64,000 bases of DNA from Flavobacteriales bacterium (GTDB lineage Bacteria; Bacteroidota; Bacteroidia; Flavobacteriales_F; PHOS-HE28), in NCBI GenBank assembly GCA_023957375.1, contig JAMLHB010000002.1:682001-746000 (forward strand). The letters are read 5' to 3'. The notes below the pieces were generated by a model. That model saw only the letters and a list, made by a program, of their open reading frames with translations, did no database searches and was not told the origin of the DNA. Shown here in pieces: positions 48,513-55,158 of this stretch (positions are counted from its first letter, which is position 1; each line of letters opens with the position of its first letter). A program made the position numbers and the translations under genes.

Positions 48513-48731
48513 ATGAACGCGGAACCTGCGGCTGCGGCAAAACCGCCCCGGCCCATGCATGGTGAAGAGTGGACGGTGGAGCCTGCCCGGCACCGCGATG
48601 CCGACGTGCTGCTGATCCGCTTCCCATACGACCGCGCACAATTGAAACGTGTCCGGAAACTGCCCGGAGCGCGCTGGTCAAGGACTAAAAAGGCGTGGTA
48701 CGTACGCGACAATGCCCATTACCGGCAGTAA
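48513..48731 (+). CDS. N-terminal fragment of a tyrosine recombinase-like protein
   Basis: 72 codons from the ATG at 48513. The segment LLIRFPYDRAQLKRVRKLPGARWSRTKKAWYV closely resembles the N-terminal arm-type domain at the start of many Bacteroidota tyrosine recombinases (XerD/phage-integrase type). No SAM-like or catalytic domain (R...HxxR...Y) follows before the stop, and none is seen in other frames downstream. So it is either a truncated integrase or a stand-alone small protein with the same domain. It lies about 560 bp upstream of the AT-rich nuclease gene, at the head of the accessory island. Confidence 0.5.
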   Translation: MNAEPAAAAKPPRPMHGEEWTVEPARHRDADVLLIRFPYDRAQLKRVRKLPGARWSRTKKAWYVRDNAHYRQ

Positions 48732-49286
48732 TTCAGGTTGCCCCCGAAAACAACCGGCAAGGCCACATTGGCGCGGATCGGCGGGGTGAACCGGGCTGCC
48801 TTGGGGAATTACATTGAACCCGGATTATGCAGCAGGGTTCGTTGCGAGGGTCGAAATCACAAGGACAGCGCGGATTTCACCGAGAAGGAATAGCACAAGC
48901 TATTGTGCCGAGGGGAAAACCGGAGAAGCGTACGCTGCCGCAGTGATTTCGGGCCGTAGTAGAAATCCTGCTGCATATTCCGGGTTGAAACAGGCCAAGT
49001 ACCTTCGCTCCACCCAAGCGTTACGCTTGCGTGCAACCACCAGAACCCCGGAAGCATCCTCTCATGTCAGTTCCCGTTACCCTCAAGGCATTGCCACCTT
49101 CCATGTTGCATTGGACCTCGCCTGCCGAGTTTCCTGCCAAAACCTACGCGTTTTGTCCATTTGGGGCGGAATATGCGAGGATCACCCCCATTCAACTACT
49201 TGCGAAATAGGCGAAGATCTGCGGCAACCCTACGTTGGTGGCAAGTGTAACGGACGACAAACAACATAACGAGAAAATCAAAAAAT
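48732..49286. other. Non-coding transition into the AT-rich island
   Basis: No convincing gene is present in these 555 bp. They hold the nested-hairpin element at 48817-48987, a short AAGCG/CGCTT hairpin near 49016, and a GTTGGTG motif at 49234-49240. Base composition falls sharply after about 49240. Confidence 0.6.
48817..48987. repeat. Inverted-repeat-bounded nested-hairpin element (copy 3)
   Basis: AACCCGGATTATGCAGCAGG (48817-48836) pairs with 48968-48987 at 19 of 20 positions. Nested inside, CGAAATCAC (48852-48860) pairs with GTGATTTCG (48943-48951), CAGCG with CGCTG, and GCACAA (48893) with TTGTGC (48903) around a 4-nt loop. Size and architecture match the elements at 2502 and 24076 although the arm sequence differs. 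Confidence 0.65.
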
Positions 49287-51305
49287 ATGAGACTAATAAA
49301 AGCAAGAGTTCAAAACTACCGAAGCATAATTGATAGCGGAGAGTTTGAAATCGAAAATTTGAAGACAATTATGGTTGGCCCAAATGAAGCAGGAAAGACC
49401 GTTTTGCTTAAAGCCTTGCAGCAGCTTAATAAACCAGCAGATGTGCAAGGTTTTGAAGTTTTACGTGATTATCCACGCTCAAAATTCAATGATATTGACA
49501 CAGGAAAAGTTGACCCAAAAAATGTAACAGTTGTAACGGGATATTTTGAGCTTGAAGATAGCGACAAAGCAGAAATACCCGAAGAGTTTAGAAACTGTAA
49601 ATACAAATTCTATAAAAACATAGATAACTCAACTTATCACAATTTAATTGATGCTCCAAATCGACTTAATTTCAAGGACATCAAATCAGACCTTTCTAGA
49701 CTTATTGCACATTTAGATAAGCAATACTCAATTGAAAATCCCGAAGAAGAAACAAAGAAGCCTAGCATTTTAATTAAACCAATTACTGATACCTTCGAAG
49801 ATTCGACCACTCTATCAACCGAAAATTGTAAAAGCCTAAAGTCTTTCCTTGAAAAAAACTATGCACTAGTAGAAGAAGGTAATGAAAAAGAAGAGAGTCG
49901 CTACGAAAAGTTAATTGAGCAAATTGACTTCAATAGTAAGTATGAACAAGTCTTAGCTACTTTGAGTAAAAGGAAGCCAGTTTTCATCTTATTTAACAAT
50001 TACTTCAAGGTAAAACCTTCTGTTCATTTGGAACACTTGGCAACAAGAACAGAACAAAAATTACTTGATGACCAATATTATGATTATGGAAATCTATGTT
50101 TGTTAAAATTACTAGGTTTTACAGCAAGAGAACTTTCAAATCTAGGTAAAACACAAAGTCCAGACATTAATAACCCAGATGCTTTAAAAGTCTATAAAGA
50201 CAAACTTGACACTAGAAGCTACAAATTAAATGCTGCAAGTGTTCGCTTGACTGAAGAAATCAAAAAAGTTTGGATGCCAAACCCTGATAGACCCGAAGCA
50301 GATAAGCTAAAAGTTACCGCAGATGGGCAATATTTAAAAGTTGTAGTAGAAGATGATATTGGAGTTGACATTGAATTAGACCAGCGTTCAGAAGGCTTCC
50401 AATGGTTAGTTTCTTTTTTTGTTGTATTCTTCGCAGAAGCAATGGATAAACATAAAAATGCAATACTGCTTCTTGATGAACCAGGAATGAGCTTACACGG
50501 ACTAAAACAAAGAGATTTTAGAGATACGATAACGAGACTTGCTGAGCATAATCAGACAATTTATACAACTCACTCTCCTTTTCTTGTTGGGCCTGATGAA
50601 TTAGACTTAGTAAGGGTTGTTGAATTGAAAAATAGAAAAGAAGGAACTAAAGTTCACACGACAATTTCATCAAGTGACCCAGCGGGTCTTCTTCCGCTAC
50701 AAGAAGCTTTGGGTTATGACCTTGCTCAAAGTCTCTTTTCACAACAAAGAAACTTAATCTTAGAAGGAATTACTGATTATTGGTATTTAGACGCATCAGC
50801 CCAACTATTGAGTGATGCCGGAATAGAAAGCCTTAATGATAAAATTGCTTTAGTGTTCGCTAATTCAGCAGGTAAAGTTGTTTACTATGCAACAATACTT
50901 TTTGCTCATAACTTAAAAGTTGCAGCACTTTTAGACTCTGATGCAGCAGGAGACCAAGCCGCCCAACAAGAAAACTTGGTTCACACTTTAGGGAATAAAA
51001 ATATTTTAAGAACAAAGGATTTTGTATCAGGAGTTGCCAAAGCAGAAATAGAAGATTTGCTTAGAGAGACACTTGTTAAGGTTGTTAAAGATGAGTATGG
51101 TGTTGACTTATCCGCAAAAGTAACAAGCCAACCAAATAGACCAATAATTGACATTTTCGCAAGTGAAGTGACTAATTTTTCAAAGTATAAACTTGCTAAG
51201 GCATTTGTTCGGTGGACAAGAAATCACGAAGCGAAGGACTTGACAGCAGATGAACAAAAGAATCTCAAAAATCTAGTTCAACAAATAAATAAAGCACTCA
51301 AATGA
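49287..51305 (+). CDS. OLD-family ATPase/TOPRIM nuclease
   Basis: 672 codons. The N-terminal ABC-type ATPase has Walker A GPNEAGKT (31-38), a long inserted coiled region (about 90-330) and Walker B ILLLDEPG (Asp397, Glu398) followed by a switch His in IYTTHSP. The C-terminal TOPRIM domain shows LEGITDYWYL (Glu493) and LLDSDAAGD (Asp550, Asp552), the metal-binding acidic set. This is the architecture of OLD nucleases and of GajA in Gabija defence; no GajB-like helicase is adjacent, so it is closer to a single-gene OLD. Its composition is far more AT-rich than every neighbour, a clear sign of transfer. A role in phage defence is inferred. Confidence 0.85.
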   Translation: MRLIKARVQNYRSIIDSGEFEIENLKTIMVGPNEAGKTVLLKALQQLNKPADVQGFEVLRDYPRSKFNDIDTGKVDPKNVTVVTGYFELEDSDKAEIPEEFRNCKYKFYKNIDNSTYHNLIDAPNRLNFKDIKSDLSRLIAHLDKQYSIENPEEETKKPSILIKPITDTFEDSTTLSTENCKSLKSFLEKNYALVEEGNEKEESRYEKLIEQIDFNSKYEQVLATLSKRKPVFILFNNYFKVKPSVHLEHLATRTEQKLLDDQYYDYGNLCLLKLLGFTARELSNLGKTQSPDINNPDALKVYKDKLDTRSYKLNAASVRLTEEIKKVWMPNPDRPEADKLKVTADGQYLKVVVEDDIGVDIELDQRSEGFQWLVSFFVVFFAEAMDKHKNAILLLDEPGMSLHGLKQRDFRDTITRLAEHNQTIYTTHSPFLVGPDELDLVRVVELKNRKEGTKVHTTISSSDPAGLLPLQEALGYDLAQSLFSQQRNLILEGITDYWYLDASAQLLSDAGIESLNDKIALVFANSAGKVVYYATILFAHNLKVAALLDSDAAGDQAAQQENLVHTLGNKNILRTKDFVSGVAKAEIEDLLRETLVKVVKDEYGVDLSAKVTSQPNRPIIDIFASEVTNFSKYKLAKAFVRWTRNHEAKDLTADEQKNLKNLVQQINKALK

Positions 51306-51318
51306 CAAGAACACCAGC

Positions 51319-51452
51319 CACCAACATCACCTATACGCAAGCAGGGGTTTCGTGCTTCGTAGGACAGGTAAGTGCTAAATTTAAAGTTCAGTTCTTCGTA
51401 GGAAGTTCAGTGGTAAAAATCCCTGCCTGCGTATAGCTGAGAACCGTTAGCG
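51319..51452 (+). other. attC-like site after the nuclease gene
   Basis: CACCAAC (51319-51325), five bases, then CTATACGCAAGCAGGGGTTT (51331-51350). This arm pairs at 18 of 20 positions with 51417-51436, and nine bases later comes GTTAGCG (51446-51452). Box-stem-stem-box order is that of integron attC sites, with variant end boxes CRCYAAC/GTTRGYG instead of RYYYAAC/GTTRRRY. A similar GTTGGTG stands at 49234-49240, just before the nuclease gene. The inner part repeats CTTCGTAGGA (51355 and 51403). Confidence 0.45.
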
Positions 51453-53942: not shown

Positions 53943-55158
53943 CAGGGCTATCGCGTCTTAAATCCAAGAAGCGCATCCAATTGAGCATCGCTTCTTGCGG
54001 CAGACTTACGCCTACGGCTTGTTGACTTCTTGTCGCCAGTAAATGTGCGGCAGATGGTCAGAGCTATCCTTCGGATTGCCGCCATGTTCTGGCTTCCATG
54101 GTCCTTTCGGATGCACGAGCCATCCTCGTCGAAGGTCACGTCAAGTACCCAATGCACTTGATTCTCAACACCCCAGTGCTGGCGTACCAGGCTGTTGAAC
54201 CTGGCGGCATCTGCTTGTAGGCTGGAGATGTAGAACCGTATCTCTTCGCTGCGTTTGCCGGTAGTGACCTCCTCTCTTGTTGAGACAATGCGCACAAGGC
54301 TCTTGAGCCCGGCCCAACGGGGGAATCGGTCCTGCAGGTCCGGAGAGTCAATCACGGCACATGTGCGCGATTCGATGCGGCCATGTCCCTTGTCCCATTG
54401 CTCATCCACCGATGAAGGAGCGTTGTGCACGAAGCACATTTCAACTTCCTCCATCAGCTCGCTCTGATTGCCCTTGGCACCCAGCAGGTACTCCCCGCCC
54501 CGGTCCAATATCCCTTCCGCGATCTCGGTCTGGCAGCCCATGGCATCAATGCTCACCGCGGCTCCCTTGAGGTCCAACAGGGCCAACAATTCCGGGATGG
54601 CCGTGATCTCGTTGCTCTTGTCATCCACTTTCATCTGTGCAAGGACCACTTGGTTGCTGCTGCTCCACGCACTGATCACATGGATCGCCTTCTTTCCATT
54701 ACGGTGGTCATGGCTGCGCCGCAAGGTCTTTCCGTCTATGCTCACCAGCGCGCCATCCGTACTGCCGCAAACCGCCGAAGTCCATTGCATGAAGCAAGTC
54801 CGGAAGGCAATTGGATCCATGCGGCGAAAGAGGTTGCCCAAGATGTCATGGGACGGAGTACGGCCATCAAGAAAGTGGCCATGGCTTTGGAGCCAACTCA
54901 ACCGCTCATCACCAAAATCGGCGATCTCCGTATAGTGCTCACAGTCGGCTACCACAGCCGAAATGGTCAGGAAGATCAGCGACTGCAGCTCATAGTGCTT
55001 GGTGCGGTCAATGCGTGGGTCTTGAAGTTCCTCGAAGTGCGTGAACAGGGTCATGTGCGGTGTTTTGCCGCAAGAACCAATGCATAAAGCTGGGGATCAA
55101 GACCTTGCAAAAAGATCGATCAACCACGAATTGTTCCTATTAAGACGCGATAGCCCTG
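53943..55158 (-). mobile_element. ISAs1-family insertion sequence, intact
   Basis: A 1216-bp element begins CAGGGCTATCGCGTCTTAA on the plus strand and ends with the perfect inverted copy (to 55158). The 10-bp sequence GCGATGGGCC appears on both sides (53933-53942 and 55159-55168), a perfect target duplication, so insertion is recent. It carries a single transposase gene with no frameshift. The element sits between pepP and the PorW/SprE gene, 69 bp before the latter's start. Confidence 0.93.
53948..55054 (-). CDS. ISAs1 family transposase
   Basis: 368 codons, full length. The N-terminus FTHFEELQDPRIDRTKHYELQSLIFLTISAVVADCE is the standard opening of the family. The DDE catalytic residues lie in SIDGKTLRRSHD (Asp), VSIDAMGCQTEIAE (Asp) and RQHWGVENQVHWVLDVTFDED (Glu). 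The C-terminus is basic (KKSTSRRRKSAARSD). It cuts and pastes the surrounding element. The stop lies 5 bp inside the left inverted repeat end, which is normal for compact insertion sequences. No sign of decay. Confidence 0.95.
   Translation of the reverse strand: MTLFTHFEELQDPRIDRTKHYELQSLIFLTISAVVADCEHYTEIADFGDERLSWLQSHGHFLDGRTPSHDILGNLFRRMDPIAFRTCFMQWTSAVCGSTDGALVSIDGKTLRRSHDHRNGKKAIHVISAWSSSNQVVLAQMKVDDKSNEITAIPELLALLDLKGAAVSIDAMGCQTEIAEGILDRGGEYLLGAKGNQSELMEEVEMCFVHNAPSSVDEQWDKGHGRIESRTCAVIDSPDLQDRFPRWAGLKSLVRIVSTREEVTTGKRSEEIRFYISSLQADAARFNSLVRQHWGVENQVHWVLDVTFDEDGSCIRKDHGSQNMAAIRRIALTICRTFTGDKKSTSRRRKSAARSDAQLDALLGFKTR

Follow-up and report, generated by a model that had tools for sequence, protein, structure and literature searches.

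How did a single AT-rich gene come to stand in a GC-rich stretch of a Flavobacteriales genome? In the window, which is the whole 64,000-nucleotide stretch of DNA analyzed here, a first-pass annotation had described an OLD/GajA-like nuclease gene carried as an integron-like cassette. We concluded that the feature is very probably a cassette that belongs to an integron-like system of Bacteroidota and was left behind in a decayed platform, and we infer that a XerA/IntI-related recombinase of this system joins circular cassettes at the GTT box of an attI-like site.

The cassette and its platform in the window

The features are listed below. IntC1 is an intact 386-aa tyrosine recombinase elsewhere in the source genome (C1, locus L045), L044 is a third platform of the same genome, and L153 and L154 are loci of a Crocinitomicaceae MAG and of Belliella filtrata.

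48513-48731, + strand: remnant, N-terminal DUF5710-like domain of the cassette recombinase (tblastn, L044 recombinase E 2e-6; IntC1 E 8e-5 in a 900-base search)
48985-49122, + strand: remnant, recombinase C-terminus (IntC1 residues 341-386 at 48% identity, E 2e-7 in a 900-base search)
49137-49238, + strand: attI-like stretch of 102 bp (100/102 identical to the stretch behind intact IntC1; similarity stops at the box)
49234-49240, + strand: 5' box GTTGGTG (complement of GCCACCAAC at 51317-51325; similarity to C1 and L153 breaks here)
49235-51446, + strand: gene cassette, 2,212 bp, 36% GC (49235-51324 recurs in L153 and L154)
49287-51305, + strand: gene for an OLD-type ATPase-TOPRIM nuclease, 672 aa (AAA_15 E 2e-22; PADLOC Old E 5.7e-26; top fold match OLD nuclease 6p74)
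51312-51325, + strand: outer arm (R''-like) CACCAGCCACCAAC (box rule; pairs with the cassette start)
51323-51448, + strand: attC-like site, AAC to GTT (covariance model E 3.1e-22; 92-98% identical copies on plasmids and in class genomes)
51327-51338, + strand: 5' strand of the covarying stem (pairs with 51429-51440)
51429-51440, + strand: 3' strand of the covarying stem (pairs with 51327-51338)
51446-51452, + strand: 3' box GTTAGCG (last six bases outside the cassette)

The observations of the first-pass annotation were confirmed overall. Its two motifs, GTTGGTG at 49234 and GTTAGCG at 51446, were correctly placed, and the foreign composition that it described agrees with a GC content of 36% in the cassette vs 61% in the window. 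Its cassette layout, a single gene between two boxes, gained support from GTTGGTGGC at 49234, which is the exact reverse complement of GCCACCAAC at 51317-51325 and ties both ends together. Because the cassette start is complementary to the box ahead of the 3' site, both ends of the unit would pair with each other once it is closed into a circle. We refer to this complementarity as the box rule. At the 5' box, the crossover was inferred to separate 49234 (G) from 49235 (T) or to lie directly ahead of 49234.

The assignment of the gene to the OLD/GajA kind was borne out by the AAA_15 and PADLOC matches, the motifs and the fold. Walker motifs GPNEAGKT and LLLDEPG were conserved in 14 homologues, as required of an N-terminal ABC-type ATPase, and the homologues kept the TOPRIM motifs LEGxTD and LLDSD, as required of a C-terminal TOPRIM domain (E, DxD). 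The nearest folds of the predicted structure, a model of moderate confidence (mean pLDDT 69.8), were 6p74 (OLD nuclease) and 8x5i, the proteins nearest in fold being OLD and GajA. The ATPase-TOPRIM layout is shared with OLD nucleases and Gabija GajA. Unlike Gabija, the cassette has a single gene without GajB, and it also lacks the small partner gene, itself different from GajB, that was seen behind several OLD homologues (159-165 aa, LITLYQFFKNQRFQQKQF...; L156, L165, L168). The product is probably an anti-phage nuclease; this was inferred from the family, without nuclease or phage-defence data. A DDE_Tnp_1 transposase gene, possibly of an IS, lies about 2.5 kb downstream of the cassette (53948-55054).

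The recombinase remnants and the attI-like stretch just upstream of the cassette had been missed in the first-pass annotation. The window recombinase is without its catalytic middle, and the DUF5710 match of the 48513-48731 remnant was below the cut-off of that family (E 4e-4). At the intact IntC1 locus, the attI-like stretch follows the stop codon and is itself followed by two other cassettes that obey the box rule. In the L044 platform, which has two cassettes, an IS66-type element interrupts the recombinase. Remnants, attI-like stretch and one cassette together indicated that the window holds a decayed platform with one cassette left. As read from the sequence, an attI next to the integrase as the entry point, which is one criterion of an integron, is met. 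The platform in the window is dead and is evidence of a past event.

Further lone sites were seen elsewhere in the source genome, in C3 (G000:C3:162098-162220 and C3:167189-167412) and in C2 (G000:C2:847530-847653). The one in C3 is some 5 kb away from recombinase fragments of the same strand and probably marks another decayed platform.

The same cassette was found in other genomes. In the Crocinitomicaceae MAG, 49235-51324 was present with 3 mismatches in 2,090 bp between unrelated flanks; this copy begins at the GTT of another such site, and the identity is bounded by the boxes. In Belliella filtrata, the same gene stands between two sites and the cassette is 95.6% identical. A megablast search of the window cassette against plasmids gave no match. 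The YceI-NYN spacing is 89-349 bp in four genus relatives, which are without the cassette, vs 3,431 bp here, although this comparison spans species and the platform as a whole has no sharp outer borders. The cassette reading would have been refuted by related strains carrying the same site with no gene exchange, or by close relatives with the nuclease in an untouched host-like flank. Neither was the case: the nuclease cassette moves without its flanks, and none of the four genus relatives has the nuclease between YceI and NYN.

Group II introns are known to enter attC sites. In the MAG, a group II intron with reverse transcriptase splits the OLD cassette's own site at AAC; the inserted element (L153 4393-6151) has its reverse transcriptase ORFs in antisense and lies exactly at the AAC box. 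An Rfam search on this insertion gave no match, and its identity rests on these ORFs. Another array (L183) also holds a group II intron reverse transcriptase gene (ltrA).

Sites, boxes and arrays across Bacteroidota

Single-sequence folding of the site was only moderately better than that of shuffled sequences (z -1.96 and -1.76). Since z values of about -1.9 are not decisive, the site was judged by comparison across relatives. Over 19 divergent sites, pairing was possible in 92.1% of the cells of the helix vs 22-40% when the alignment was slid by 1-3 columns, the covariation score of the stem was 0.665 vs 0.05-0.08 when slid, and 10 of the 12 stem pairs had changed on both sides in a compensatory manner. 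A palindromic site with a conserved fold, another criterion of an integron, is met insofar as this comparison predicts the fold.

Near-identical copies (91-98%) of the 127-bp AAC-to-GTT stretch were found in class genomes and on 13 plasmids, whose hosts include Bacteroides, Riemerella, Myroides, Sphingobacterium, Salmonella and Acinetobacter. Their similarity breaks off at AAC and GTT, and the flanks are unlike. The box consensus over 77 sites was C and then GTTRnnnGYMA; the GTTRGYG given in the first-pass annotation proved too narrow. Canonical RYYYAAC and GTTRRRY were present in 5/77 sites each, which equals chance level, and only AAC and GTT are kept. The pattern TATACGCN{40,70}GCGTATA had no match in the source genome, because the other sites differ in stem sequence.

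The interior of the site (e.g. 51345-51425 in the window) looks as if it were made up of near-repeats, each about 20 nt long and centred on GTGCTnnn, which is not usual for attC loops. In 79 sites of the studied loci, the Bacteroidota -7 promoter motif TAnnTTTG was present in 18 interiors, in the forward direction only, vs a mean of 4.8 in shuffled sequences. The sites may carry a promoter for the next cassette, for which there are no promoter data.

A covariance model built from divergent sites detected six sites in the source genome (the window site and five more), sites in 183/247 genomes and 109/135 genera of the class, and sites in 174/395 genomes of the phylum (44% of those sampled). A stem-box structure occurring only once would have spoken against the cassette reading, and this was clearly not so. 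The model had no match in a plasmid region with a class 1 integrase, a weak control as the cassettes of that region were not annotated.

With iterated profiles, head-to-tail arrays became visible, among them about 12 sites on one strand in L050 and four sites on a 4.8-kb Riemerella plasmid (L035). Different single genes stand between consecutive sites in these arrays, which is the check that the first-pass annotation had proposed. A run of at least 5 nt beyond GTT was common to both boxes in 74% of the cognate pairs vs 2.4% of the non-cognate ones. In a first pairwise comparison, 8/31 cassette pairs broke the box rule; these span long gaps, and most likely each has an overlooked site in the gap. 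For the 67 cassettes delimited by the rule, the medians were 911 bp in length and 34% in GC, and the longest ORF was oriented toward the site in 60 of 62. Tandem cassettes, usually of one gene each and ending in a recombination site, are a further criterion of an integron that is met.

The recombinase and competing explanations

The recombinase was found at E 1e-60 or better in 105/247 class genomes. Sites were present in 98 of these 105 genomes vs 85 of the 142 others (odds ratio 9.4, p 6e-10). The 85 site-bearing genomes without a recombinase at this cut-off may reflect draft contigs or other recombinases. Many recombinase matches run to contig edges, as expected because repeated sites break assemblies. 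In 15 recombinase loci, all 45 sites lay downstream of the recombinase on the same strand, and a nearest-start search found an exact 9-nt complementary start upstream of 43 of the 45. The first cassette starts 77-155 bp after the recombinase stop in nine of these loci. A tyrosine recombinase adjacent to the array, also a criterion of an integron, is met in the 15 loci; the window has only remnants.

The best NCBIfam match of the recombinase was XerA (NF040815). At a cut-off of 220, the L028 recombinase scored 238.5, IntC1 218.5 and the L046 recombinase 204.8. The spacing of catalytic motifs is the same as in XerA/Xer proteins; unlike these, IntC1 is just under the family cut-off, and the recombinase heads cassette arrays and can be present more than once per genome. 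At its N-terminus, the recombinase carries an additional domain that matches DUF5710 weakly.

An ordinary integron, with a standard IntI acting on its cassettes, would fit the overall layout, and the best PDB match of IntC1 is indeed IntI4 (2a3v, E 9e-41). Against the integron-integrase model TIGR02249, however, IntC1 scored 211.7, below the cut-off of 265, and matched in two stretches with a gap between them. The spacing from KxxKDR to HxLRH was 64 residues in 13/13 recombinases measured vs about 101 in IntI4, which indicated that the IntI-specific insertion is absent, and GTTRRRY is at chance level, so that we regard an ordinary integron as very improbable. The system resembles IntI integrons (class 1, Vibrio and other chromosomal ones) in having a recombinase, an adjacent attI-like site and head-to-tail single-gene cassettes with a hairpin site at the 3' end and AAC/GTT cores. 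It differs from them in its recombinase without the insertion and with the DUF5710-like domain, in its boxes, in an outer pairing of 9-14 nt, in the same direction of recombinase and cassettes, and in the reassortment of inner site and gene. Since the anatomy is integron-like and two defining features of the IntI family, the insertion and the canonical boxes, fail, the system is classed as an IntI-independent integron variant and not as a member. The variant recombination system in Bacteroidota that the first-pass annotation had considered matches these data (recombinase, arrays, boxes), with recombination itself inferred.

The hairpin could instead be the end of a transposon, IS91-type element or MITE that brought the gene in, as the site is 92-98% identical in distant hosts and an IS91 transposase and an integrase-like gene lie near some plasmid arrays. 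Such an end would not be expected in head-to-tail arrays with different single genes between the sites and with starts that complement their own ends, and what precedes the arrays is a tyrosine recombinase rather than a transposase. The transposon-end or MITE reading was rejected on the arrays and the box rule, and we give it scant credence. IS91 as the mover was also rejected, as it lies near few arrays only and its proximity was limited to two plasmids. That the gene entered by natural transformation, with homologous recombination between repeated hairpins (terminators, for instance) and only an incidental link to the recombinase, seems scarcely credible. Hairpins are common behind genes, and Riemerella takes up such a unit by natural transformation, but its integration there occurred without flanking homology (PMC13148043). 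Junctions also lie at the box although the joined inner sites differ, and the box rule and the recombinase linkage would be left unexplained.

For the integron-like system that we prefer, the following mechanism was proposed. The XerA/IntI-related tyrosine recombinase would join a circular cassette, typically one AT-rich gene followed on its 3' side by a hairpin site some 125 nt long, to the attI-like site behind its own gene, at the GTT box. The site would fold as a single strand, in which the outer arm pairs with the first 9-14 nt of the cassette itself and the inner stem presents the boxes to the recombinase. Boundaries, arrays, recombinase linkage, the covarying stem, the pairing of the ends and, through the copy of this cassette in a second genome, mobility have direct support, which is support from DNA sequence and its comparison alone. 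The circle, the folded-strand exchange and its strand, the exact cut and the linked recombinase as the enzyme are inferred, and no recombination was observed.

Cargo, reassortment and significance

The suggestion in the first-pass annotation that such a system disperses defence genes held only in part. A few of the 52 cassette genes scanned matched defence families (SspE/GmrSD, PD-Lambda-2, HEC-06, PDC-S41). Much of the other cargo consists of transporters, resistance genes, enzyme families and unknowns, mostly with one occurrence each. The box rule of cassettes also holds for the resistance genes tet(X2), aadS, ere(D), blaOXA-347 and catB and, in inverse orientation, for erm(F).

In Acinetobacter, the 'xerD' directly before tet(X3) corresponds to the C-terminal part of the cassette recombinase family (50% identity), and a truncated site, whose boxes no longer match, lies behind the gene. 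An N-terminally truncated 'xerD' ahead of tet(X3) was seen in L181 (4028-6211; NZ_CP041297.1) and L182. This 'xerD' fragment would be explained, as it resembles the last part of such a recombinase, to which tet(X3) would be the cassette. Among the published xerD-tet(X) units of Acinetobacter and Chryseobacterium, those of Acinetobacter share this recombinase and site; in the parts of the publications available to us, the units were reported as neighbours of ISCR2 or IS91, without a cassette reading (PMC9784759, PMC11194056).

One property is not predicted by a plain integron. One inner site type (at least 90% identity) was joined to eight different arms, and the OLD cassettes of the window (51323-51448) and Belliella (L154 6037-6160) have the same arms around inner sites only 73% identical. 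In a genome of the same genus, the same arms surround another gene. This reassortment of inner sites and genes is unexplained; our guess is that exchange at both boxes would account for it. That Bacteroidota have an integron lineage of their own, independent of IntI, with both boxes exchangeable and hairpin sites swapped between genes, is a tentative proposal that we consider possible and do not hold as probable.

Parts of the system have been reported before. IntegronFinder 2.0 described Bacteroidetes with only cassette-less In0 in an earlier survey, and then one complete integron (PMC9024848). A 2026 paper on Riemerella described how aph(3')-IVb, which has an attC-like tail of 140 bp (3' UTR), integrates independently of homology, and left the mechanism open (PMC13148043). 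That unit is like the present cassettes in that a 27-bp leader and the hairpin tail move with the gene without flanking homology, a likeness drawn without sequence comparison; unlike the present system, the paper names neither a recombinase nor an attI. In our literature search, which did not cover preprints and most subscription papers, no publication described the recombinase, the attI and the family of sites as one system. The system as a whole appears to be new, which is not certain, as preprints lay outside the search.

A system with sites in 44% of the sampled phylum genomes appears to lie outside usual integron detection. It offers one common mechanism by which tet(X), erm(F), aadS, ere(D), blaOXA-347 and catB could spread among Bacteroidota, and it provides candidates for the recombinase and the attI behind the homology-independent integration that was reported in Riemerella. 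Whether folded-strand exchange needs the IntI-specific domain, and how genes acquire recombination sites, can now be tested. If both boxes are exchangeable, there would be a route for an ordinary gene to become a cassette.
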